Positions 16,501 through 52,029 of a stretch of 64,000 bases of DNA are shown here, piece after piece. The notes beneath the pieces were generated by a model, which was not told where the DNA came from, did no database searches, and worked only from the letters and a program-made list of their open reading frames with translations. Each line of letters begins with the position of its first letter. Position 1 is the stretch's first letter. The DNA comes from Petrosia ficiformis (taxonomy: Eukaryota > Porifera > Demospongiae > Haplosclerida > Petrosiidae). The DNA lies in contig OX345645.1 in the NCBI GenBank assembly GCA_947044365.1, forward strand, positions 5,895,741 to 5,959,740, written 5' to 3'. The translations under genes were made by a program, and so were the position numbers.

Positions 16501-17757
16501 CTAAGAACAGAAGCGCTGATGGTTGTGTAGACCTTGCTTTTTAAAATATTGACCACAACTTGGACATTTTAAAAGCTGATTATAACCTTCAGAGTGTATT
16601 TGACGGACATGATTGGATAGACCCGCTTTCGATCTTGCTACAAAATCACAGCCGCCTTCACTGCATTGCCATTGAAGCAGCACAGAGTCATGACTTCCAT
16701 CCTCATTATTATTTCTCTTCTTTCTTTCGTCCTTTTTTCTCTGTTCTAAATCTTCAAGCTCCTCATTCACTTCCTCGGCACAAGCATGTACAAGTCCCCT
16801 TCACATTTTCCTATCCACTGCAATCTCACTCCAGTTCTCCACCAAGCCACATCTCTTTAAATCATTGCTTACCACATCACACCATCTCAACTTCTGCTTT
16901 CCCACTGCTCTCTTTCCTCCCACGATCTTGCTTACCAACAGACATCTGGGGATTCTTTCTGATGCCATTCATACCACATGACCTAGCCATCTCAATCTTC
17001 TCTGTGACATTATTACTTCTACTCGCATCATACCTGCCTTTTTACGTACCTCCACATTCCGTACTTTATCCATCTTGGATATGCCTAGTATTGAACGAAG
17101 ACATCCCATAACAAAAGCTTGTAGCCGCTGAGTCTGTAGAGCAGTGATTGCCCATGTTTCACATCCATACAAAAGAGACGACATTACTACTGACTTAAAC
17201 AAATTAACCTTCAATCTTTTACTGATTTCTTTTCTATCCCATATTATCATTTTCACGCTACAAAAAGCTCTTGTTGCCTTACCTATTCTAGCCCTCAACT
17301 CTGCCTCCATGCTGCCATTATTTTCTATAATACTCCCCAAATACTGAAAATCATCTTCCACTACAATCACTTCTCCATTATCCAGACATACCTCTTGCAC
17401 CTCTTCATCAGAAGCCATAGGTGGACTAACACCCATCATGCATGATTTTTTGGCACTTATAAGCATCCCCATTTCACGAAATACCCTATCCACTTCTCTT
17501 ACAAAACATTTAAGATCTTCCATAGAGTCACACATTACCACCATGTCATCAGCATATTCTAAATGAACCAGCACTACTTCCTTCGACATTTTTTTCCTGC
17601 TACCAACCAGCCTAAATTCATCCAGATTACAGACTATCACCACCCCACATCCTTGGATTCGGGATTCCACAATACTGAGCAGTGCATCAAGGAACAGATT
17701 GAATAAAACTGGGGCTAACACATCACCTTGACGAACTCCATTTTCGATATATTGACA
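16501..17757 (-). pseudogene. 5'-truncated non-LTR retrotransposon (RT 3' half plus zinc fingers)
   Basis: Read on the - strand, the frame begins at reverse transcriptase block 4 (GVRQGDVLAPVLFNLFLDAL), has the catalytic block EYADDMVVM, then FQYLGSIIENNG, SLLYGCETWA and the thumb region RRLRWLGHVV. Two in-frame TGA stops (after GHVV, and after DRKM) interrupt it before a C-terminal part with a C2H2 finger (CSEGGCDFVARSKAGLSNHVRQIH, residues split by loops) and a C2HC finger (CPSCGQYFKKQGLHNHQRFC). The endonuclease and first RT blocks are missing. Both sides are CATA repeat, so it probably inserted into, or was overgrown by, the microsatellite. The clade is not assigned. Confidence 0.85.
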
Positions 17758-18924
17758 CCATACATACATACATACATGCAAACATACATACACACATAGT
17801 TGCATACATACATACATATGTACATAGTTTATACATGAATAAATACGTACATACATACATATATACATACATACATGCATACATACATACACACATAGTT
17901 GCATGCAATCATACATACATACATGTAAATACATGCATGCATACATACACATATACACTCATAGTCGCATACAGTGTACATATTCATATACACACATAGA
18001 CTCATATTCGCAAACATACAAACATACATACATACATGTACATACATACATACATACATACATACATACATACATACATTGTACATACATACATACATAC
18101 ATACATACATACACACATACATACATATATCTATAGAATACATACATACATACATACAGATGAACATACATGTATGTACATACATACGTATATACATGTA
18201 CATACACGCATAAACAAATAACACATACATACAACACACATACATACATACACATACGTACATACATACATACATGTATACACATACATACATGCATACA
18301 TACATTTACATACATACATATATACACATAAATACATTCAGACATATATACGTAAATACGTACATACATACATACGTGCATACATACAAACATATATCAA
18401 TAGAAACGTACATACATACATACATGTATACATATTTGCATACATACATACATACATACGTACATACATACATACATACATACATGTATACACATACATA
18501 CATGTAAATACACGCATGCATACGTACACATGTACACTCATAGTCGCATACAGTGTACATATTCATATACACACATAGACTCATATTCGCAAACATACGT
18601 ACAAATATACATACATACACACATGAGTACATACACCCACTCGTACGTACATACATACATACATACATGCATGCATACACATACATACATTAATACATAC
18701 AAACATGCATACACACATACTCGCATACTCACATGCATACACATACATACACATGTACAAACACACGTACTTACATACATACATATATCTATAGAAACAT
18801 ACATACATACATACATAGGTACGTACATACATATATATATACATACACAATGTACATGCATGCACACATACACACATAGTCGCATACAAACACACATACC
18901 TACATACATACACATGTACATGCA

Positions 18925-20590: not shown

Positions 20591-21340
20591 GTGTACATAC
20601 ATACATACACATATACATACATGTACATACACACATAGTCACAATTATACATACGCACATACATTCATACATACATACATACATGAATACATACATACAT
20701 GTACATACATACATACATACATACATACATACATACATACATGTACATACATACGTACATACATACGTACATACACACATACATACATACATACACGCAT
20801 ACATACATACATACGTACATACGTATATACATACATACATATATACATACATACATACATTCATACACACATAGTCGCATACATAGATACATACATACAT
20901 ACATACGTACATACATACACATATACAAACATACATACATACACACATAGTCACAAACATAGACACACACATACATACGTACATACATACATACATACAT
21001 ACATATACACATGTTCGCATACATAAATACACACATGCATACATACGTACGTGCATACATACGTACATACATACATACATACATAAACATGTACATACAT
21101 ACATAAATACATACACACTTAAATACATACATGTGTACATATATACATACATACATACACATATAATCGCATACATGCATACATATACATGCATGTGCAT
21201 ATATACCCGCATACATAGATACACACATACTCGCATACATACATACATACATAGACCATACATACATACATACATACATACATACATACATACATACATA
21301 CATGCATGCATATATACACATGTATATATACATACATAGA

Positions 21341-21374
<34 letters not shown>

Positions 21375-21635
21375 CATACATACATACATACAATCATTCA
21401 TACATACATACAATCATTCATACATACAATGTACATATGTACTTGACATACATACATTCAAACATACACGCAGTCATGTATGCACACACACACTCTCTTC
21501 TCTTATTCCACTCATACAAGTACATGTATACACACGCACCTTTTGCACTTGTACATGTGTTCAGGTGATATCCTTTGTGTATATATATATACAACTAATT
21601 ACTATTCACAAAACTTCATTTTCTTCCTCTTATAG

Positions 21636-21797: not shown

Positions 21798-24700
21798 TTA
21801 TAGAAATATATTCAGTTCTTCGAGTGACAGTCTGTTTGTTATTTCTACTAATGGTTGTGGACCAAGTTTCTTTTCTTTACGTTGAGTAATCAGTGTTTTC
21901 TTCATATCATTTAGTATGTCTATCATAATAGATGATTTTGGAATACTAACATAACATAATGATGGATGTAGTAACACAGTTTCCCAAAATTGATGTATCA
22001 TTGATATGCAGTCTACTTTATATGTATTTTCAGATAGTGCTAAGAATATAACTTTCAGGAACTTCATGTCTTCATTTCTATTCAACATATTTGTAACATA
22101 AGGAATTATCTCTTCGTAAAAAAATGATGTCAATACCTGTTCTGAGATCCTCCATGCGTTAAATATCATTGTCAGTGATTTTAGATTATCAGTAGCTTCA
22201 AAGAATTCTTTCAAATTAATATTTTCTGAAAATTCAATGGTTACATTCAGTTCTTGTAGTGTGTTGTTTCTTCTCAGACCAGTAGTCAGGTATTTGATAA
22301 GTAATGTACAATTGGATGCTTGGCTTTCTATCTCCAGACATTGTAGTGATTTGTTTGTTGACAACATCAATTGAAGAGATTTTCCCACTTCATCATGAAA
22401 CAAACTAATGCTTTTAAATTTTATTCTAAGAGTTATGATAGTTGTGTTACTGGAGAGAATGTTAAATAGTTCATTAAGACTTTCTTCTCTCTCTAGTACT
22501 ATATCCAGATGTTGTAGAAAAGGGTTAGAATCTAAATAGCTAATGAATGGCATCAATGGTTTATATAGGGATAGACTTTTCAAGTTAGCAATATTTCTTC
22601 GAACAGATTCTAATCCAGGTGACAAAGTTTCTGTTTTCTTTACAGGATATGTTATGATATCATGTACTGTATCATTACTGATATTTAGTGCTGTAAGACA
22701 TTCATTAACTACAAATGGAGATGGTAGTATTCCTTTAATAGGTATATTCAGTTTAACAGCTTGTAAGGTTTGGTTGTTTTTCAAAAGCTCTTCAATTTGT
22801 AATGACTTAGTATGAGTAGAGTCTGATGATAGTGAAAAGAACTGGATTGTATCATTTCTCTCTACTCCAGTAAGCAAACTATTTATTAATGAGTTGAATG
22901 GCAAGCCTGACAACTCAATCAAAAATTCTTTAATAGTATGATTTGTAGACAATACCTTCTCCATTTCCACTAATAATTCATTATCAATATGATCTTCAAA
23001 ATGAATAGAATGTAACTTGTCAATGCGTACATGTAGGATATTCAGATGAGGCAGTTTAAACAGCTGTGTGAACATGATCACAACTGAATCATGATGTATT
23101 GTACCAGATAGGTAGAATACTTCAATATAACTTTCTTGAAGGTACTGACACAATGACGATTGGTGTAGCTTGATTACTGATGTGATATCACGATATCCTG
23201 ATTTCATTACAATGCAATTAGTCATGTTTGAATCTTCTTTGGAAAGTTTCAGCAACTTATGATAATACCCATGATGGAGATAATTCCAAGTGACCTTTGA
23301 GTTCTTCAGGAGAAAGGACAAACACAATAAATCAAATTGTGATGATATCACCTTACGTACACAGAGAGAGGAGTTTGTAATAGATGAAACAAATATCTGA
23401 CACAATACTTTGTTTTCAGACTCGTAAATTAGATGAAGCAATTGTATAGTATCTGTATCATAATAGGGTTCATGAAGAGGATAGTCACTCATGAAAATGT
23501 CATAAAAAAGCAATTGTGGATTCTGATGAAACACAGAGCACTGATGAGATTCAAAACCAAACAATGGTTTCCTTATACATTGTAAGTCTACCTCTTTACT
23601 GAAATACTCTTGATAGCTGTCATCTTTAAGTTCAGTCAGACCTGCCACAAATCTTAGTGTCATGCGAAAGTGAGTTCCATGGAAATGTTCTCTAAACAGC
23701 ATTTTTTGATCATCATGGTGAGTTATCCACCATGCTGCCAGGAACTCCTGAATGGTTAGGTGAAGAAACTGATGTTTAGTGGTGTCTGCTATCTTGTAAC
23801 AGTTCATTAATCCAAAATGTTCACACTTCATTGAATGTGATAACTTTAGTATTTCATTTCTATTGAAAGTGGTATTTTGTGTTTTCAGCTTCTCATAAGC
23901 ACAACAACAAAGTTCATCAAATGCTCTCTTTTGATCTTCTTGTAGTTCTTCAAGCGATTCAACTGTGTCTGGATCAAGCTCTTGTTTTTCCATTGATCTC
24001 TTTACGGCATATAGAACATATTTCTTGTAAAACTTAGTCAAAGTGTTAGGAAGAATAAAGTCACACAGCTGATAAACTCTCACTAACATGAAACATACAA
24101 AAGGTATATAACATAATGACAAGACATCTTCCCTAATCTTCAATTCCTCTATTAATTGTTTAGCATTCTGTTCAGTCAGCTCATTCCTGATACATGTAAA
24201 AATTTCTTTTTTCTCAAAACCTAATACTTCAATATGACGAATGTTTGTTTTTTTTAGGAGAATTGATGAGGCATACGTACGTGAAGTAATCATTATATTA
24301 CAGCTCTGTAATATATTCCGTTGAATAATATTCAGTATGAATGATTGCGTTTGGTCTCTTCCCTTAAACTCATCCCATCCATCAAGTATTAGTAACAAAC
24401 CTCTACCATTTGTCTCCATGATCTGAGCACTAACAGTTTCACAAAGCTTTTTACTACTGTGAAATAAAGAAACAAGATCAGATATGTTTTTAGCTGATGA
24501 TACTCTCTCGTCTCTAAGATGAAGAAGAAAAACATGATCAAAGGAACATTTCTTCAATTCATTCTTAGCCCACATGTTACACAGTTTATGACAAAGTGTA
24601 GTTTTTCCTACACCTGGAGGACCATCAACTACTACTTTGATTGGACTATTATCATCATTATGTTTCAGTACATGTTGTATGTCTATTTTCTTTGATACAT

Positions 24701-26881
24701 TCATTATATTGTCTAATTTGCCATGTAACATGTTCCATGTTCTACTCCTCCCCTCTTTGTCAGAAAGACATCCTCCATGTCCCTTAATGAGTCCAAGTTG
24801 TCCAAACTTGTGTTCATCAACATCTGATAATTCATGTTTATAATAATCTTGTAACTCCTTACTATATATATCACTTTCAGTTATAAGTTCATCAGTTGGT
24901 GGCAAAGATGATGATAATCCTGATGAATATAACAATCATTACAAAGTATAATATACTAGACTGCATGCCTGCATGATTATGGATGGTGATATGCACTACT
25001 ATGCATCTGTGGTCTAGTAACAAAGTGATTTGCCTGTATATTCTGATAAAGGTACATGTGGCTCACACACATCAACTCATAATGCTGGTAACACTTACTC
25101 ATCTACTATAAACATATCCAATTCCAGGTGTGTGAATGAAAGGGGTGAATGATATATAAATTAGCACTAACACTCCTACCTAAACTCTTAACCCTACAAT
25201 CAAGAATGAAAGTCCCAGGAATGAGGACAAATCCAGAAGAACAATTCATAATTCAGAACAGGATGAATATAACCACTATATATCATACAATACTAACTAA
25301 GTGTACCTAAACCTATAATAAATATGTAAGTAGTCAGTAATTATCACTTAATTAAGACCAAAGCTTGATTCTTTCCATTTGTTTCTACATTGTGGTTTAT
25401 TATTATTTTAGAATTACATAATAACGATAATAATTATATTAACTACTATGTAGTTCATATAGAATAAACTATTCCACTTACCACATTCATGTTTCAGTTG
25501 GTTTGCTAATACATTTTCTCCTATGCTATCAAGTGTAGTGGATAATTTCAGTAGCCCTTCTTCATATGTAGGGAAACTTGTATCCATCTTCAACCATTTA
25601 TTAAACATTGCTAACATACAGTTCCTCATTATAAAATGATTATCATGTTCTATTTCTTTAATATCAGAATCTGATAATCCTAGTAAAACTCCAACATGTT
25701 TCCAATCACCCAGTGTAGTAATCTGAGCTGTACGTCTTCGTAATCTCTCTCGACCTTCAGTACTTAATATTTTCTTTGCTTCTGTTACACCATCATTCTC
25801 TTCACATTCATTCATTGATGTATCTAAAACAGTAACAAGAGTGTGTGGTAAGCAAACATGTAAACAGTACGGTTCTTAAGATTTGAAATGTTTGTTTTTT
25901 TTTATGGGAAAGTACATCTTTGAACAAAGGCTAGTACTTTTAGGAGCACCATGAAAGGTTTGAATTGAAATAATAATGATACTTTAATTATCACATTCTT
26001 AAATGTTGAGATTCAGTTTTAGAAGTCAAAATGTGGCCAAAAATTGAAATACATCTTCATGCAAATGGAAACTTATTTGGGAGGGTATTAGGTGGTTTGG
26101 GAACCTGAGAGTTTGTGGGAAGCTTCCCATACCTGATGGTACGAATTATGTTTCACTATATAGTGTAATGAATATAAGCAACAATTAAGCTCATGAGCTT
26201 AACTATAATTACCTTCTTCAATTAGCTTTTTCCTCATTGCATGTGCAGTATCTTTCTCTCCACACCTGTCTACTGATGATATTAACTCTTTCCATGATGC
26301 TTCTGATGTATTCTTAATCCACCAATCCAATGCTATTTCTATTGCATAATCGTATGTTTCATCTTCCTTTATTATAGCTCTTATCTTTCCTTTTAGCTCT
26401 ACTGGAACACTCAGGAAACTCGTTAACAAACTCCACTTGCTCTTAAAATTAAATCCACATTCATACAGTAGTGAAACTGCTTTGCCCGGAGTAATCTCTG
26501 ATAGTGAGTATAGAAATATAATAAATGATTATACTGCATGAAATATAGCTCATATTTATATACATTGCAGTAAGTTATATAAATGTGTGTTTAGTACTAT
26601 ATTAAACATAGTAATAACTAACCCACAGGTCCAGGATTTGATTCCACATCACCAGAGAGTATCAGTAGTAGAAATATACACACAGTTAGTATATGCAAAC
26701 ACACACTAGTATGACTGAGTAATGTTCTAATACATACTCCAACATATTCACTCTCCCAATGATAATCTTTCACTCCTGGATGACTTTGCATGTTATTAAC
26801 AAGTCTGCTTTTCCTCTTGACAGACTTCATACCACCACCCCACATTCCAATAGAAACTCTCCATTGTATGAGATCAATCAT
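21798..26881 (-). CDS. NLR1: 2A leader - Death - Death - NACHT - LRR receptor
   Basis: Probable intracellular innate immune receptor of 1335 residues. Four exons, all joined in phase 1: 26623-26881, 26213-26497, 25482-25823 and 21798-24919. Exon 1 encodes a basic leader, a hydrophobic segment (about residues 59-75) and a 2A-like GDVESNPGP at 77-85. Exon 2 gives a Death-fold domain (ITPGKAVSLL ... ALDWWIKNTSEASWKELI), and exon 3 a second one (LGDWKHVGVLLGLSDSDI ... IGENVLANQLK). Exon 4 carries NACHT, with Walker A GPPGVGKTT at 395-403, Walker B LLLILDGWDEF at 470-480 and a MITSRT sensor-like motif. The C-terminal half has irregular LRRs (NKSLQCLEIES, RNNTLQELNV). The start at 26881 is the only in-frame ATG before the leader; a later ATG is possible. 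NLR2 at 45854 is a close paralogue. Confidence 0.88.
26627..26653 (-). other. 2A-like ribosome-skipping motif of NLR1
   Basis: Encodes GDVESNPGP, matching the D-V/I-E-X-N-P-G-P consensus at which ribosomes omit one peptide bond between G and the last P. It directly follows the hydrophobic run IFLLLILS and ends two residues before the end of the exon. Skipping would release the receptor starting at P85 and leave an 84-residue leader. Activity is inferred from the motif. Confidence 0.85.
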
Positions 26882-27557: not shown

Positions 27558-28608
27558 ATCCCATAACAACCATAATTAAAGGAAAGCGTTGCATGAGGTT
27601 CACATCCAGATGAATGGCTGCATTTATATCATCTTTACTGTAATCATAATAAATTTGGCCTAATAATTTCATGGATATAGTTGTGATTGCGGTTCTGGTA
27701 TAAATGATAGGGTGTTATGTTTTGAGGAAATAATTACAATACTGTAATTTGTAGGGTGGGCCCACTGAGCATAATCTTAGCAACCACCTAGCAACGGGAT
27801 ATAAGTATTTGCATATACTTATAATTATTATGTTTATATCGTTTGTGTATACTGTAAAAGCCCTCAAAAGAAAACACCATTGGGAAGGTCCTTTTTGTCC
27901 TCTATAACGAGGTGCCACGGTCCTTATCTCAGGGGTTGACACGTGTCATGCACATGTCCAGTTCACACTCATGTACTGTTGTTATGGCTAGTCGATCTAT
28001 AGTTTGACCTCAATAAACTTAAATGCTGGAAGTTAAGTGGTATATAAGAGGATACCTTGTTTATAAGTGGTATGGGAAGCAACATGTGGCGACGTGGTAC
28101 ATTAATTTTGGAGAGTGAACACAATAATAAATGAAGACAGATTTGTTGTGGCTGTTCTAAACTAGAGAGATTTATTCAGTCTCGAGCTTCACAAATGTAA
28201 AAATATTGAATATATACCTTCATACTGTTGTTGCATGTTGATCTCAAAAAAAGTTGTCTGTATTACATAGGTCATTTATTAGTATTATTGTATAAAGGGG
28301 GTGTGACTGGCAACCATTGTGCAGAAGAGCGGTGTGTCTATATGTGAGGGGTTACAACAGTATTGAGTTCAATGACAGGTCAATCGGGACTGTGGTAGCT
28401 GTTATTTATGTAGTGAATGTCCACAACTCAGGAGTGTCCATTAAGAGGGGTTTTACTGTAAACTGATAACCGCCTCTCCTTTGGTTTGATGGAGATTGAA
28501 TTACAACATGATACAGGATAGTGATGTACCGATAACCGATCCTATATTACATCTATCTTCTGATTTCTGATTATTTCAATAACAAGTGTATATAGAGAAA
28601 AAAAGTAT
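27558..28608. other. intergenic, no supported gene
   Basis: AT-rich DNA between two MITEs on the 5' side of NLR1. No exon or repeat could be supported. Confidence 0.4.
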
Positions 28609-28975
28609 CCCTATGATTGCTTTATGGTGTCCAGCATTCAGTAATCATGGCTGACTTTATCATTCCTGAAACACAACAGCCTATTATAGTTATTATTTGA
28701 TTATCTACTCTCTTTACCTTCTAAAGAATCTTGTAGAACTTTAGAGCAGGTAGAATAGTAGCTAGTAGTTCCAGTTTCTAATTCTATGTAAGCTACAAGC
28801 AGCTTTCTTCCTGCTGAGTTCGAGCGCACGTTCTATTACGTGCCACGCCCATTAATTGACCGAGCCCCCGGGAATGACGTAACTTCTTTAACTACGTATA
28901 CAATGCATACTCGCGTAGGTGACACAAGAATATAAATATATATAGTTCGAACCCGTGGGAAAGCAATCATAGAGA
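28609..28975. mobile_element. MITE, CCCTATGATTGCTTT family, long copy
   Basis: Begins CCCTATGATTGCTTTATGGT and ends GTGGGAAAGCAATCATAG. The centre holds GTGCCACGCCCATTAATTGA and the GACGTAACTTCTTTAACTAC block seen in the other copies. Non-coding. Confidence 0.8.
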
Positions 28976-28999
28976 TGGCCCTACGGGCCATAAAAATAT

Positions 29000-45853: not shown

Positions 45854-48800
45854 TTAGTTCCATTCTTCTTCATAACCCATTCCATCTCTCAGTTGTACTA
45901 ATGGATTTGGACCAAGTTTCTTTTCTTTACGTTGAGTAATCAGTGTTTTCTTCATATCATTTAGTATGTCTATCATAATAGTTGATTTTGGAATACTAAC
46001 ATAACATAATGATGGATGTAGTAACACAGTTTCCCAAAATTGATGTATCATTGATATCCAGTCTTCTTTATATGTATCTTTAGATAGTGAATGTACTGGA
46101 TAGAATATAACTTTCAGGAACTTCATGTCTTCATTTCTCTTCAACATATTTGTAACATGAGGAATTATCTCTTCATCATAAAATGATGTCAATACCTGTC
46201 TTGAGATCTCCCATGTGTAAAATATCATTCTCAGTGATTTTAGTTTATCAGTAGCTTCAAAGAATTCCTTGAAATTAATATTTTCTAATAATTTAATGTT
46301 TACATTCAGTTCTTGAAGTGTGTTGTTTCTTCTCAGACCAGTAGTCAGGTATTTGATAAGTAATGTACAATTGAATGCTCCACTTTTGATCTCCAGACAT
46401 TGTAGTGATTTGTTTGATGACAACATCAATTGAAGAGATTTTCCCACTTCATTATGAAACAAACCAATGTCTTCACATTTTATTCTAAGAGCTATGACAG
46501 TTCTGTTACTGGAGAGAATGTTAAATAGTTCATTAAGACTTCCTTCTCTCTCTAGTACTATATCCAGATGTTGTAGAAAAGGGTTAGAATCTAAATAGAT
46601 AATGAATGGCATCAATGGTTTATATAGGGATAGACTTTTCAAGTTAGTAATATTTCTTCCAACATTTTCTAATCCAGGTGACAAAGTTTCTGTTTTCTTT
46701 ACAGGATATGTTATGATATCATGTACTGTATCATTACTGATATTTAGTGCTGTAAGAGATTCATTAACTGGTATGATACATAGAGATGGGAGTATTCCTT
46801 TAATAGGTATATCCAGTTTAACAGCTTGTAAGGTTTGGTTGTTTTTCAATAGCTCTTCAATTTGTAATGACTTAGTATGAGTAGAGTCTGATGATAGTGA
46901 AAAGAACTGAATTGTATCATTTCTCTCTACTCCAGTAAGCAAACTATTTATTAATGAGTTGAACGGCAAACTTGACAAGTCAATTAAAAACTCATTAATA
47001 GTATGATTTGTAGACAATACCTTCTCCATTTCCACTAATAATTCATTATCAATATGATCATATGATTGATCAGATGTTACACAAATAATGTGTACATGTA
47101 GGATACTCAAATGAGGCAGTTTAAACAGTTGTGTGAACATGATCACAACTGAATCATGATGTTCTGTACCAGATGTGAATATATTAATATAACTTTGTTG
47201 AAGGTACTGACACGATGATGATTGGTGTATCTTGATTACTGATGTGATATCATGATATTCTCCTTTCATTACAATGCAATTGGTCATGTTTGAACCTTCA
47301 TTGGAAAGTTTCAGCATCTCATGAACATATGGATTATGGAAACAATTCCAAGTGATCTTTGAGTTCTTCAGGAGAAAGGACAAACACAATAAATCAAATT
47401 GTGATGAATACACTCTAAATACACAGAGAGAGGAGTTTTTAATGGAGGAAACAAATATCTGACACAATATTTTGTTTTCAGACTCGTAAATTAGATGAAG
47501 TAATTGTATAGTATCTGTATCATAATAGGGTTCATGAAGAGGATAGTTACTCCTGAAAGAATTACGAATGTCACCACAAAGCAATTGTGGATTCTCATGA
47601 AACATAGAGTACTGATGATATTCAAAACCAAACAATGGTTTCCTTATGCACTGTAAGTCTACCTCTTTAATGAAATACTCTTGATAGTTGTGATCTTTAA
47701 GTTCAGTCAGACCTGCCACAAATCTAAGTGCCATGCGAAAATGAGTTCCATGGAAATGTTCTCTAAACAGCATTTTTTGATCATCATGGTGAGTTATCCA
47801 CCATGCTGCCAGGAACTCCTGAATGGTTAGATGAAGAAACTGATGTTTAGTGGTGTCTGCTATCTTGTAACAGTTCATTAATCCAAAATGTTCACACTTC
47901 AATGAATGTGATAACTTTAGTATTTCATTTCTATTGAAAGTGGTATTTTGTGTCTTCAGATTCTCATAAGCACAACAACAAAGTTCATCAAATGCTCTCT
48001 TTTGATCTTCTTGTAGTTCCTCAAGTGATTCAACTGTGTCTGGATCAAGTTCTTGTTTTTCCATTGATCTCTTAACGGCATAAAGAACATATTTCTTGTA
48101 AAACTTAGTCAAAGTGTTAGGAAGAATAAAGTCACACAGCCCATAAACCCTCACTAACATGGAACATACAAAAGGTATATAACATAATGACAAGACATCT
48201 TCCCTAATCTTCAATTCCTCTATTAATTGTTTAGCATTCTGTTCAGTCAACTCATTCCTGATACATGTAAAAATTTCTTTTTTCTCAAAACCTAATACTT
48301 CAATATGACGAATGTTTGTTTTTTTAAGGAGAATTGATGAGGCATACGTACGTGAAGTAATCATTATATTACAGCTCTGTAATATATTCCGTTGAATAAT
48401 ATTCAGTATGAATGATTGCGTTTGGTCTCTTCCCTTAAACTCATCCCATCCATCAAGTATTAGTAACAAACCTCTACCATTTGTCTCCATGATCTGAGCA
48501 CTAACAGTTTCACAAAGCTTTTTACTACTGTGAAATAAAGAAACAAGATCACATATGTTTTTAGCTGATAATACTCTCTCATCTCTAAGATGAAGAAGAA
48601 AAACATGATCAAAGGAACATTTCTTCAATTCATTCTTAGCCCACATGTTACACAGTTTATGACAAAGTGTAGTTTTTCCTACACCTGGAGGACCATCAAC
48701 TACTACTTTGATTGGACTACTATCATCATTATGTTTCAGTACATCTTGTATGTCTATTTTCTTTGATACATTCATTATATTGTCTAATTTGCCATGTAAC

Positions 48801-51800
48801 ATGTTCCATGTTCTACTCCTCCCCTCTTGTTCAGAAAGACATCCTCCATGTCCCTTAATGAGTCCAAGTTGTCCAAACTTGTGTTCATCAACATCTGATA
48901 ATTCATGTTTGTAATAATCTCGTAACTCCTTACTATATATATCACTTTCAGGTATAAGTTCATCAGTTTGTGGTGAAGATGATGATAATCCTGATGAATA
49001 TAACAATCATTACAAAGTATAATATACTAGACTGCATGCCTGCACGATTATGGATGGTGATATGCACTACTATGCATCTGTGTTCTAGTAAAAAAGTGAT
49101 TTGCCTGTATATTCCGATAAAGGTACATGTGGCTCACACACATCAAATCATAATGCTGGTAACACTTACTCATCTACTATAAACATATCCAATTCCAGGT
49201 GTGTGGATGAAAGGGGTGAATGATATATAAATTAGCACTAAAACTCCTACCTAAACTCTTAACCCTACAATCAAGAATGAAAGTCCCAGGAATGATGACA
49301 AATCCAGAAGAACAATTCATAATTCAGAACAGGATGAATATAGCCACTATATATCATACAATACTAACTAAGTGTACCTAAACCTATAATAAATATATAA
49401 GTAGTCAGTAATTATCACTTAATTAAGACCAAAGCTTGATTCTTTCCATTTGTTTCTACATTGTGGTTTATTATTATTTCAGAATTACATAATAACGATA
49501 ATAATTATATCAACTACTATGTAGAATAAACTATTCCACTTACCACATTCTTGTTTCAGTTGGTTTGCTAATAAATTTTCTCCTACCATATCAAGTGTAG
49601 TGGATAATTTCAGTAGCCCTTCTTTATATGTGGAGAAACTTGTATCTTTCCTCAACCATTTATTGAACATTTCTAACACACAGCTTGACATTCTATCACG
49701 ATTATTATATTCAATCTCTTCTACAACAGAACCTAATTCTAGTAGTTGTCCAACACGTTTCCAATCCCTCAGGATAGTAATCTGGGCTACTCGTCTCTGT
49801 AATCTCTCTCGATCATCAGTATTTAATATTTTCTTTGTTACTGTTACACCATCACTCTCTTCATGTTCATCTTTTGATATATCTGAAGTAGCAAGATTGT
49901 ATGGTAAGCAAACATGTATACATATTTGTGTAGTATATACAAGGTTCTTAAGTTTTTTTAAAATTTTTATGGCCGGTAGGGCCATCCCTATGATTGCTTT
50001 CCCACGGGTTCGAACTATATATATATATATATTATGTTTGTGTCCACTTGCGCGAGTATGCGTTGTATACGTAGTTAAGGGGGCTCAGTCAATTAATGGG
50101 CGTGGCGCGTAAAAGAACGCGCGCTCAAGCACTACAGACCAGCTGCAGCAGAAAGAAAGCTGTGTAGTTTACGTAGAAAGTGGAACTAACAGCTAACTAT
50201 TCTACCTGAAATATATTCCTAAAGTTCTACAAGGTTCTTTAAAAGGTAAAGAGAGTAGATAATCCAAATATTAACTATAATAGGCTGTTGTGTTTCCAGC
50301 ATGATAAAGTTAGCCATGATTACCGATTACTGAATGCTGGACACCATAAAGCAATGATAGGGATACTTTTTTCTCTATATACACTTGTTCTTATCGAGAA
50401 GTATGAAATTTTATTGTCATTAATACCACTGAAGTCAAATATTTGATAAATCAAAATTAAACGAAAACATTTTGGGAAGCCACACACCATGTTTGAAGTG
50501 TGGGGTATTATCCCCATGAATAGTTTGAATCAAAGCCACTGTGAAATGGATTGTAATGTATTCTCAGAGTTAAACACCATATATATAGTTTAACAGTTAT
50601 TGTTTTAAATTTTGAGATTCAGTTTTTGGAGGCAAATGTGGCTAGACCAAGAATATATCCTCATTTACTTAATAAAAGTATTTTTGAGCAAGGTGAGTGG
50701 TTTATGAGCTGGAGTTTGTGGGGAAGCTTCCCATACCTGACAGTAAGAATTATCTTTCAATATAGTGTAATGAATACAATAATTAGTGGTGTGTGATAAT
50801 ATTTGTTACTAAAATTATTTACATGATTAATCTGTATTAGCAATGAAGTCCACAGTAAAACAGACACTCTCTTTCCAGGAAACAACATGACCATGCACAG
50901 CCAAACTCAAACCACTGACCATTTAGCTCAAGCTCTAACCACTAGTCGTGTGCCCCTACTCTTAGGGGTCAGCATGGCTTAATGGCTCTTAGGGTCAGCA
51001 TGGCTTAGCGGTTAGAGTTGAGCCTCTTGATCAAACGGTCAGTGGTTCAAGTTTGGCTGCAGTCGTGTTGTTTCCTGGAAAGAGAGTGTCTGTTATTCTG
51101 TGGACTTCATTGCCAATGTAACACCGTTAGGAAGGTTTCTTCCTAATTAACTTCTCTTAGGATTTTTTGGCCCTGCCGTCACTAAACACTCAGCTACGCC
51201 CCTGGTACAAAGAGAGTTGTTGTTGTCTTTGTAGCTGAATTGGGTCGGTTGTTGTAGAAGATAAGAAGGAACTATCACATGGGTGCTACACTTCCTTTTA
51301 TAGCATATGGTATTTAACTATAATTACCTTCTCCACTTAGTTTTTTCTTCATTGTGTCTGCAGTATCTTTCTCTCCACACCTGTCTACTGATGATATTAA
51401 CACTCTCCATGATGCTTCTGATGTGTTCTTAATCCACCAATCCAATGCTATTTCCATTGCGTACTCAAATGCTTCATCTTCCTTTATTATAGCTCTCATC
51501 TTTTCCTTTTGTTCTAGAGGAACATTCAAGATACTTGTTAATCGATTCCAATTGCTCTTAAAATTAAACCCACAATCACTGAGCAGAATTACCGCTTTGC
51601 CAGGAGTAATCTCTGATATTGAATATAGAAAAAAAAAGCAAGCAATTATACTACATGAAATATATAGATCATATTTATCTAGTAGGTTATATACATGTGT
51701 GTTTAGTACTATATTAAACATAGTAATAACTAACCCACAGGTCCAGGATTTGATTCCACATCACCAGAGAGTATCAGTAGTATAAATATACACACAGTTA

Positions 51801-52029
51801 GTGGATACAACCACACACTAGTATGACTGAGTAATGTTCTAAGAATATTCATACACATTCCAGGAGGTTCGTACTTCCTGTGATAGTCTTTCATACTTGG
51901 ATGACTTTGCATGTTAACAAGTCTGCTTTTCCTCTTGACAGACTTCATACCACCACACCACATTCCAATAGAAACTCTCCATTGTATGAGATCAATCATT
52001 ATGAATATCTGTATGGAAACAATATTCAA
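45854..52029 (-). CDS. NLR2: 2A leader - Death - Death - NACHT - LRR receptor
   Basis: Close paralogue of NLR1, 1351 residues. Exons 51735-52029, 51328-51612, 49544-49882 and 45854-48990, all phase 1. The leader starts 11 residues earlier than in NLR1 (MNIVSIQIF before the shared MIDLIQW) and has the hydrophobic segment and GDVESNPGP at 89-97. Two Death-fold domains follow; the second is more diverged (LRDWKRVGQLLELGSVVEEI). Walker A is GPPGVGKTT at 406-414 and Walker B LLLILDGWDEF is identical to NLR1. The LRR half differs at many sites, with small insertions and deletions, and the final residues differ (DGMGYEEEWN versus SLEELNIFL). The third coding exon is separated from the second by an intron of about 1.45 kb filled by two mobile elements absent from NLR1. 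The frame is intact throughout. Confidence 0.88.
49986..50362. mobile_element. MITE, CCCTATGATTGCTTT family, in NLR2 intron
   Basis: About 377 bp from CCCTATGATTGCTTTCCCAC to ATAAAGCAATGATAGGG. The matching intron of NLR1 (25824-26212) is short and lacks it, so the insertion is younger than the duplication. Confidence 0.85.
50840..51113. mobile_element. fold-back element with tRNA-like arms, in NLR2 intron
   Basis: Arms of about 80-120 bp are inverted copies: GCAATGAAGTCCACAG ... AGACACTCTCTTTCCAGGAA at the left and its reverse at the right. The right arm also contains box A-like TGGCTTAGCGGTTAGAG and box B-like GTGGTTCAAGT, and the left arm the diverged inverse. Hence it looks like two tRNA-derived units placed head to head. 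It is absent from NLR1. Confidence 0.75.
51739..51765 (-). other. 2A-like ribosome-skipping motif of NLR2
   Basis: GDVESNPGP, identical to NLR1, directly after the hydrophobic run IFILLILS and one residue before the end of exon 1. The flanking leader has drifted (for example YEPPGMCMN versus ESEYVGVC), whereas the motif is unchanged. Confidence 0.85.

Follow-up and report, generated by a model that had tools for sequence, protein, structure and literature searches.

A repeated leader-2A exon at the start of Death-NACHT receptor genes in the sponge Petrosia ficiformis, and a candidate second product

StopGo (2A) sequences in cellular genes have been called rare, with the sea urchin named (PMC12846837, PNAS 2026), and NLRs were mentioned among the cellular 2A carriers in a review-type paper of 2024 (PMC11512398), as stated in the accessible parts of these papers. 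In the part of Roulston et al. 2016 that was available, a 26-residue 2A of Strongylocentrotus purpuratus NLRs showed both recoding and signal activity; recoding by SpNLR2A6 was about 80% (the authors' qualitative estimate), and secretion rose once recoding was abolished (PMC4981915). The same source gave the 26-amino-acid 2A in 14 of 87 NCBI entries; a wider count came to 85 of 241 NLR proteins. The sea urchin precedent on which an earlier note on the present DNA drew is real (PMC4981915). Excerpts of a survey of viral sequences reported that FMDV needs just over 30 native residues for full StopGo activity, that Leu at p7 and p9 matters in F2A mutants, and that motif 6 was among four motifs tested, all of them active (PMC12846837). 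A word search of the main text of PMC4981915 found no mention of sponge, Amphimedon or Porifera, and "2A-like" was absent from the main text of a sponge NLR survey (PMC12909245). No report of a 2A on sponge receptors was found among the literature matches listed (titles and abstract openings), a partial coverage that does not establish novelty.

The stretch of Petrosia ficiformis DNA analysed here (the window, 64,000 nucleotides) contains two paralogous gene models, NLR1 and NLR2, with the following features.

26623..26881, minus strand: NLR1 exon 1, coding part (leader and 2A; 86 codons plus 1 base; phase-1 donor)
26840..26881, minus strand: NLR1 conserved N-terminal motif MIDxxQWRxxIGxW, codons 1-14
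26654..26701, minus strand: NLR1 hydrophobic run CLHILTVCIFLLLILS, predicted membrane segment, overlapping the upstream context of the 2A
26627..26653, minus strand: NLR1 GDVESNPGP, the StopGo/2A core; skip expected between the last Gly and Pro
26213..26497, minus strand: NLR1 exon 2 (weak, sub-threshold Death-domain match)
25482..25823, minus strand: NLR1 exon 3 (Death domain)
21798..24919, minus strand: NLR1 exon 4 (NACHT, C-terminal region and stop codon)
51735..51999, minus strand: NLR2 exon 1 (paralogous leader and 2A)
51739..51765, minus strand: NLR2 GDVESNPGP
51328..51612, minus strand: NLR2 exon 2 (weak, sub-threshold Death-domain match)
49544..49882, minus strand: NLR2 exon 3 (66% match to NLR1 exon 3)
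45854..48990, minus strand: NLR2 exon 4 (NACHT and C-terminal region; NACHT match at C10:5943982-5944446)

The NLR1 model, built from DNA, comprised four exons separated by phase-1 introns with GT-AG borders and gave a single open frame of 1335 amino acids; the NLR2 model had the same layout from 51999 to 45854 and an open frame of 1341 amino acids. The leader, hydrophobic run and GDVESNPGP lay in frame at 26881-26627 on the minus strand, where the earlier note had placed them. Exon 1 encoded 85 residues up to the end of GDVESNPGP, followed by one Val codon, one base and a GT donor (CTGTGG/gttagt); the donor is 4 bases past the last Pro codon, which agrees with the claim that the leader ends almost at the exon border. 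The fit to the skipping consensus also held: the octapeptide D(V/I)ExNPGP was present, with an L-rich upstream context and (A/S/C)G before p12. The proposed Death-Death-NACHT-LRR order stood in part. NACHT (PF05729, E 1.7e-25) and the Death domain of exon 3 (PF00531, E 2e-6) were found in NLR1 by Pfam, the Death match of exon 2 was below the Pfam cut-off (0.024 in NLR1, 0.064 in NLR2), Pfam gave no LRR family in NLR1 at E 0.05, and the best match of the C-terminal part to PDB sequences was weak (E 0.15). By its gene model, NLR1 is thus a predicted Death-NACHT gene with the leader-2A at the N-terminus of an NLR-type protein. Elsewhere in the window, long TATG-type simple repeats at 21000-21540 help to produce mechanical open frames on both strands, and an open frame at 16969-17958 (minus strand) had a partial reverse transcriptase match (1.2e-16).

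Compared with the sea urchin NLR 2A as described in the accessible text, the sponge arrangement has in common the octapeptide at the N-terminus of Death/NACHT receptors, a hydrophobic run directly upstream and many family members. However, the whole sea urchin signal is 26 residues long and works as a signal sequence, whereas the sponge leaders have 61-92 residues (n=93), with 33-65 of them ahead of the hydrophobic run instead of a run near the start. The sponge leader also has a conserved N-terminal motif, its own exon, a phase-1 donor and a relative on ankyrin-repeat proteins. The sponge leader-2A module is, as judged by these sequence features, a variant distinct from its closest precedent, the sea urchin NLR 2A. 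With the L-rich StopGo motifs 2 and 6, as given in the available part of PMC12846837, it has in common Gly at p11, A/S/C at p10, a Leu-rich p6-p9 and Asp at p12; those motifs are viral, whereas the sponge ones are in cellular genes and have a hydrophobic run of membrane-segment length.

The 191-Mb assembly holding the window (29 contigs) was searched for both ends of the leader. The DNA pattern for D(V/I/M)ExNPGP had 205 sites, enumerated by three narrower patterns (66, 99 and 40) with the Met form absent, against 0 for the reversed-pattern control, and a chance motif was therefore ruled out. A pattern for the far end of the leader that does not include the 2A, MIDxxQWRxxIG, had 122 sites (31 + 82 + 9; controls 0), and the 2A octapeptide followed within 400 bases in 118 of them, in register in 117. 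Linkage of the N-terminal motif to the 2A is near obligatory. The canonical motif was also present in 80 of 82 genomic matches to the leader protein (150 of 156 candidates scored). In total, 127 of the 205 2A sites, a few of them broken, were leader-linked, that is, within 800 bases of the N-terminal pattern, matched by the leader protein, or added by reading (L038, L039, L070 and L079); the other 78 were unlinked. The module is real, repeated and conserved. "In register" does not imply stop-free, stops having been checked at some sites only, and at least three in-register leaders had an in-frame stop (C10:5176182, 5717854 and 6553219). The exceptions to linkage were two N-terminal-motif sites broken by stops and without 2A (L055 and L057), one leader split by an insert whose 2A survives about 700 bases further on (L058), and one open leader with a 2A ending in NPGL (L056). 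The last (C10:4978147-4978881) has a NACHT exon downstream at C10:4976433 and is a natural candidate for a non-skipping copy. The insert in L058, a MIDLCQWRAS leader (C11:5316178-5317224), resembles window repeats at 28581-28996 and 49964-50389 (68-88% over pieces), one upstream of NLR1 and one within NLR2 intron 2, and may be a short mobile repeat.

The association extended to the receptor exons. Of the 103 NACHT exons scored (out of 249 candidates), 67 were preceded on their own strand by a 2A site no more than 6 kb away; the control counts were 2 downstream and 1 upstream on the opposite strand. Seven more NACHT exons had a site at 6-20 kb, and 29 of the 103 had none within 20 kb upstream. 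From the C10 cluster, 20 of the 127 leader-linked sites were fetched; an exon-2 match followed in 19 of these loci and a NACHT match in 18. At the one C3-family locus read, the predicted phase-1 join leads from the leader to an exon that resembles a Death domain (0.00036, narrowly missing the Pfam cut-off) and is followed by a NACHT-type exon. Leaders starting with MIDLCQWRAS, read at C11, C2, C1 and C12, headed another type of gene at the two loci where the reading extended downstream. The exon that follows the leader at C12 was one long open frame containing 26 ankyrin stretches, and the predicted splice joined it to the leader in phase 1, stop-free through the fetched DNA; at C11, the predicted leader-ankyrin join was likewise in phase 1 and open for 1332 codons. 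Shuffling of the leader-2A exon, for which the earlier note had suggested a search, is borne out by this related leader exon heading ankyrin-repeat genes at both such loci examined.

Constraint and geometry were assessed in 93 distinct open leaders, with identical copies merged. Most of these loci had been chosen through the 2A pattern, and a leader had to show QWR close to its start as well as NPG(P/L); sequences dropped included L070 (MIGIC start) and L086, L107, L019 and L076 (stops or frame change). This selection accounts for part of the invariance at QWR and NPG and for part of the low pN/pS at the 2A codons (0.23 over all pairs); less affected by it are the 118 of 122 linkage, the p7, p9 and p11 columns, and pN/pS in the middle and hydrophobic parts. 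Leu occupied p7 and p9 in 92 of 93 leaders each, p10 was S, C or A in 92, and p11 was Gly in all 93, with p6 and p8 more variable. Over all pairs, pN/pS was 0.35 at codons 1-14 (slightly favoured by the selection), 0.63 in the hydrophobic stretch and, from 380 equal-length pairs, 0.95 in the middle. The synonymous difference at codons 1-14 was 0.40, so constraint there acts on the protein. Between families, whose labels are crude and derived from short sequence tags, as they are for all within- and between-family ratios, pS at the 2A codons was 0.57. In NLR1, some 70 residues or more separate the conserved first 14 codons from the skip site, against just over 30 native residues for full FMDV activity (PMC12846837). 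Because its start is conserved, its middle is not, and the conserved part is far from the skip site, the leader seems to be more than a targeting signal, and this pattern of constraint is the main evidence for that view.

A hydrophobic stretch (19-mer with KD >=1.6) was present in 91 of the 93 leaders; the best 19-mer ended 4-11 residues before the leader end, and the net charge ahead of the stretch averaged +4.0 (range 0 to 9). In none of the 93 did a 19-mer of this hydropathy begin within the first 22 positions. Judged by hydropathy only, the predicted released leader matches tail-anchor geometry, with one hydrophobic segment near the C-terminus and none earlier. No known fold or domain was recognized: Pfam found no domain in the two leaders scanned (one alone, one within NLR1), PDB sequences gave no match, and an AlphaFold model (helices 4-22 and 38-81) had low confidence (pLDDT 67), too weak for a fold search. 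An amphipathic N-terminal helix was unsupported, the moment lying below shuffles (mean z -1.49).

The 2A is very likely functional, in our judgement, and exon 1 is predicted to encode a working StopGo/2A signal that would make NLR1 a two-protein gene. Most ribosomes would fail to form the last Gly-Pro bond and would release an 84-residue leader ending in NPG; translation would then continue into a cytosolic Death-NACHT receptor beginning with Pro. The ribosome tunnel holds about 30-40 residues, and at the moment of skipping the hydrophobic segment would still be inside the ribosome. Membrane insertion of the freed leader would for this reason be post-translational, giving a small tail-anchored protein whose MIDxxQWRxxIGxW end faces the cytosol. 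Where skipping fails, in a minority of ribosomes, the product would be a receptor fused to a membrane anchor; the unskipped chain would expose its signal anchor later and probably place the receptor across the membrane in type II orientation. That the gene makes two proteins, a receptor and a free leader with a role of its own, is the best explanation of the data and a reasonably probable one. It is favoured by the linkage of the N-terminal motif to the 2A, the p7, p9, p10 and p11 columns, the pN/pS pattern, the hydrophobic geometry, the NACHT association and the ankyrin joins. Counting against it are the lack of a known leader domain or fold, the non-amphipathic N-terminus, the stops in at least three in-register leaders, the 29 NACHT exons without an upstream 2A, and the look of many leader copies as recent duplicates, which means that the copies are not independent events.

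The dual targeting proposed by the earlier note is possible but incomplete. Under sea urchin-type dual targeting, the leader would be a recoding signal sequence only: skipping would give a cytosolic receptor and a discarded leader, read-through would send the receptor to the secretory pathway or membrane, and the ratio would be the point. The recoding and secretion behaviour of SpNLR2A6 (available part of PMC4981915) is in its favour, as is the one natural copy with NPGL, which is expected to be always fused. However, neither a signal nor a 2A requires the conserved block at the start of the leader, the hydrophobic segment comes only after 33-65 residues, unlike a classical signal, and read-through would yield a type II membrane protein, not a secreted product. 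As a full account, dual targeting was judged rather unlikely. Less probable still, and doubtful at best, is a translational brake, in which the 2A would mainly halt a share of the ribosomes at the leader and keep the receptor low or stress-dependent. In its favour, models of StopGo include termination at the 2A as one outcome, and regulation by stress has been postulated for the sea urchin case (PMC4981915), but a brake leaves the conserved N-terminal motif and the membrane-length hydrophobic segment unexplained.

The 2A sites also differed in their relation to reverse transcriptases (RTs). Among the 150 RTs scored of 1383 candidates, one was located 1.4-2.5 kb downstream, on the same strand, of 10 of the 78 unlinked 2A sites and none within 4 kb downstream of the 127 leader-linked sites; at this depth of scoring, the idea that leader sites are part of a retrotransposon was rejected. 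APE-type non-LTR retrotransposons reportedly carry 2A sequences, as described by Odon in 2013; the octapeptide is common to both, and the 10 RT-associated sites look like these elements, whereas the MIDxxQWR leader is absent from the two RT-linked examples read, L043 (C10:6660692) and L045 (C1:28011923). In these two, the 2A is followed by a weak PHD-finger match (below the Pfam cut-off) and by an RT 1.7-1.8 kb downstream, and they are read as 2A in a putative non-LTR-like element. That the leader motif is a relic, acquired with a duplicated exon or a retrotransposon and carried along without function, is highly improbable: the RT-associated unlinked sites show that a donor exists and many copies look recent, but the motif was retained at 118 of 122 sites across families with widely differing synonymous sites (between-family pS 0.57), and none of the 150 scored RTs lay within 4 kb downstream of a leader-linked site.

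Relatives were also found in protein databases. A search at E 0.01 gave 633 relatives, and two at E 0.1 gave 17 and 1004. Among the 241 relatives listed, 233 had the exact N-terminal motif, followed by the octapeptide in 231, a proportion biased by profiles that contained the 2A and by the restriction of detection to proteins near query length. Eight of the 28 relatives read were Amphimedon queenslandica UniRef entries ("Uncharacterized protein"), and all eight started with MIDVSQWR and had the octapeptide, with a longer leader. A set of relatives, some of them from A. queenslandica (P0138-P0147, P0150 and P0214), had longer leaders with two hydrophobic stretches by eye, and these leaders may span two exons, the second one carrying the 2A; because of the two stretches, the A. 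queenslandica leaders do not fit simple tail anchoring. Two entries, P0135 and P0136, were leader-like and without 2A. The latter is probably a cut-off exon, since relatives sharing its start, some of them from A. queenslandica, run past the same point to a 2A. The Death-like tail after the 2A of A. queenslandica P0214 had no Pfam match and a weak BLAST match to NLR1 exon 3 (5e-5, two-sequence search).

A broader proposal can be put forward tentatively, and we regard it as somewhat less likely to be right than wrong: sponges may have made 2A a general way to encode a dedicated partner in a receptor gene, namely a tail-anchored micro-protein that has a conserved cytosolic MIDxxQWRxxIGxW handle and is produced at a fixed ratio to the receptors. 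These receptors would form a large, fast-evolving repertoire with at least two architectures, all served by one shared membrane partner system. The 127 leader-linked 2A sites of this single animal genome are spread over two or more receptor architectures, and their leader resembles a protein in its own right. If the module works, it offers a natural set of paralogues, including the NPGL copy, for testing directly what cellular 2A is for, the candidate purposes being dual targeting, a second product and dosage. A further group of seven 2A sites was of the GATGTGGAGAGCAACCCNGGACC type (C3:2014468, 2023116, 2136954, 2142869, 2152252 and 2303138, and C4:1367440). The two of these that were read, L041 and L042, had a hydrophobic run without the MIDxxQWR leader, and six of the seven sites lay inside the C3 NLR cluster.
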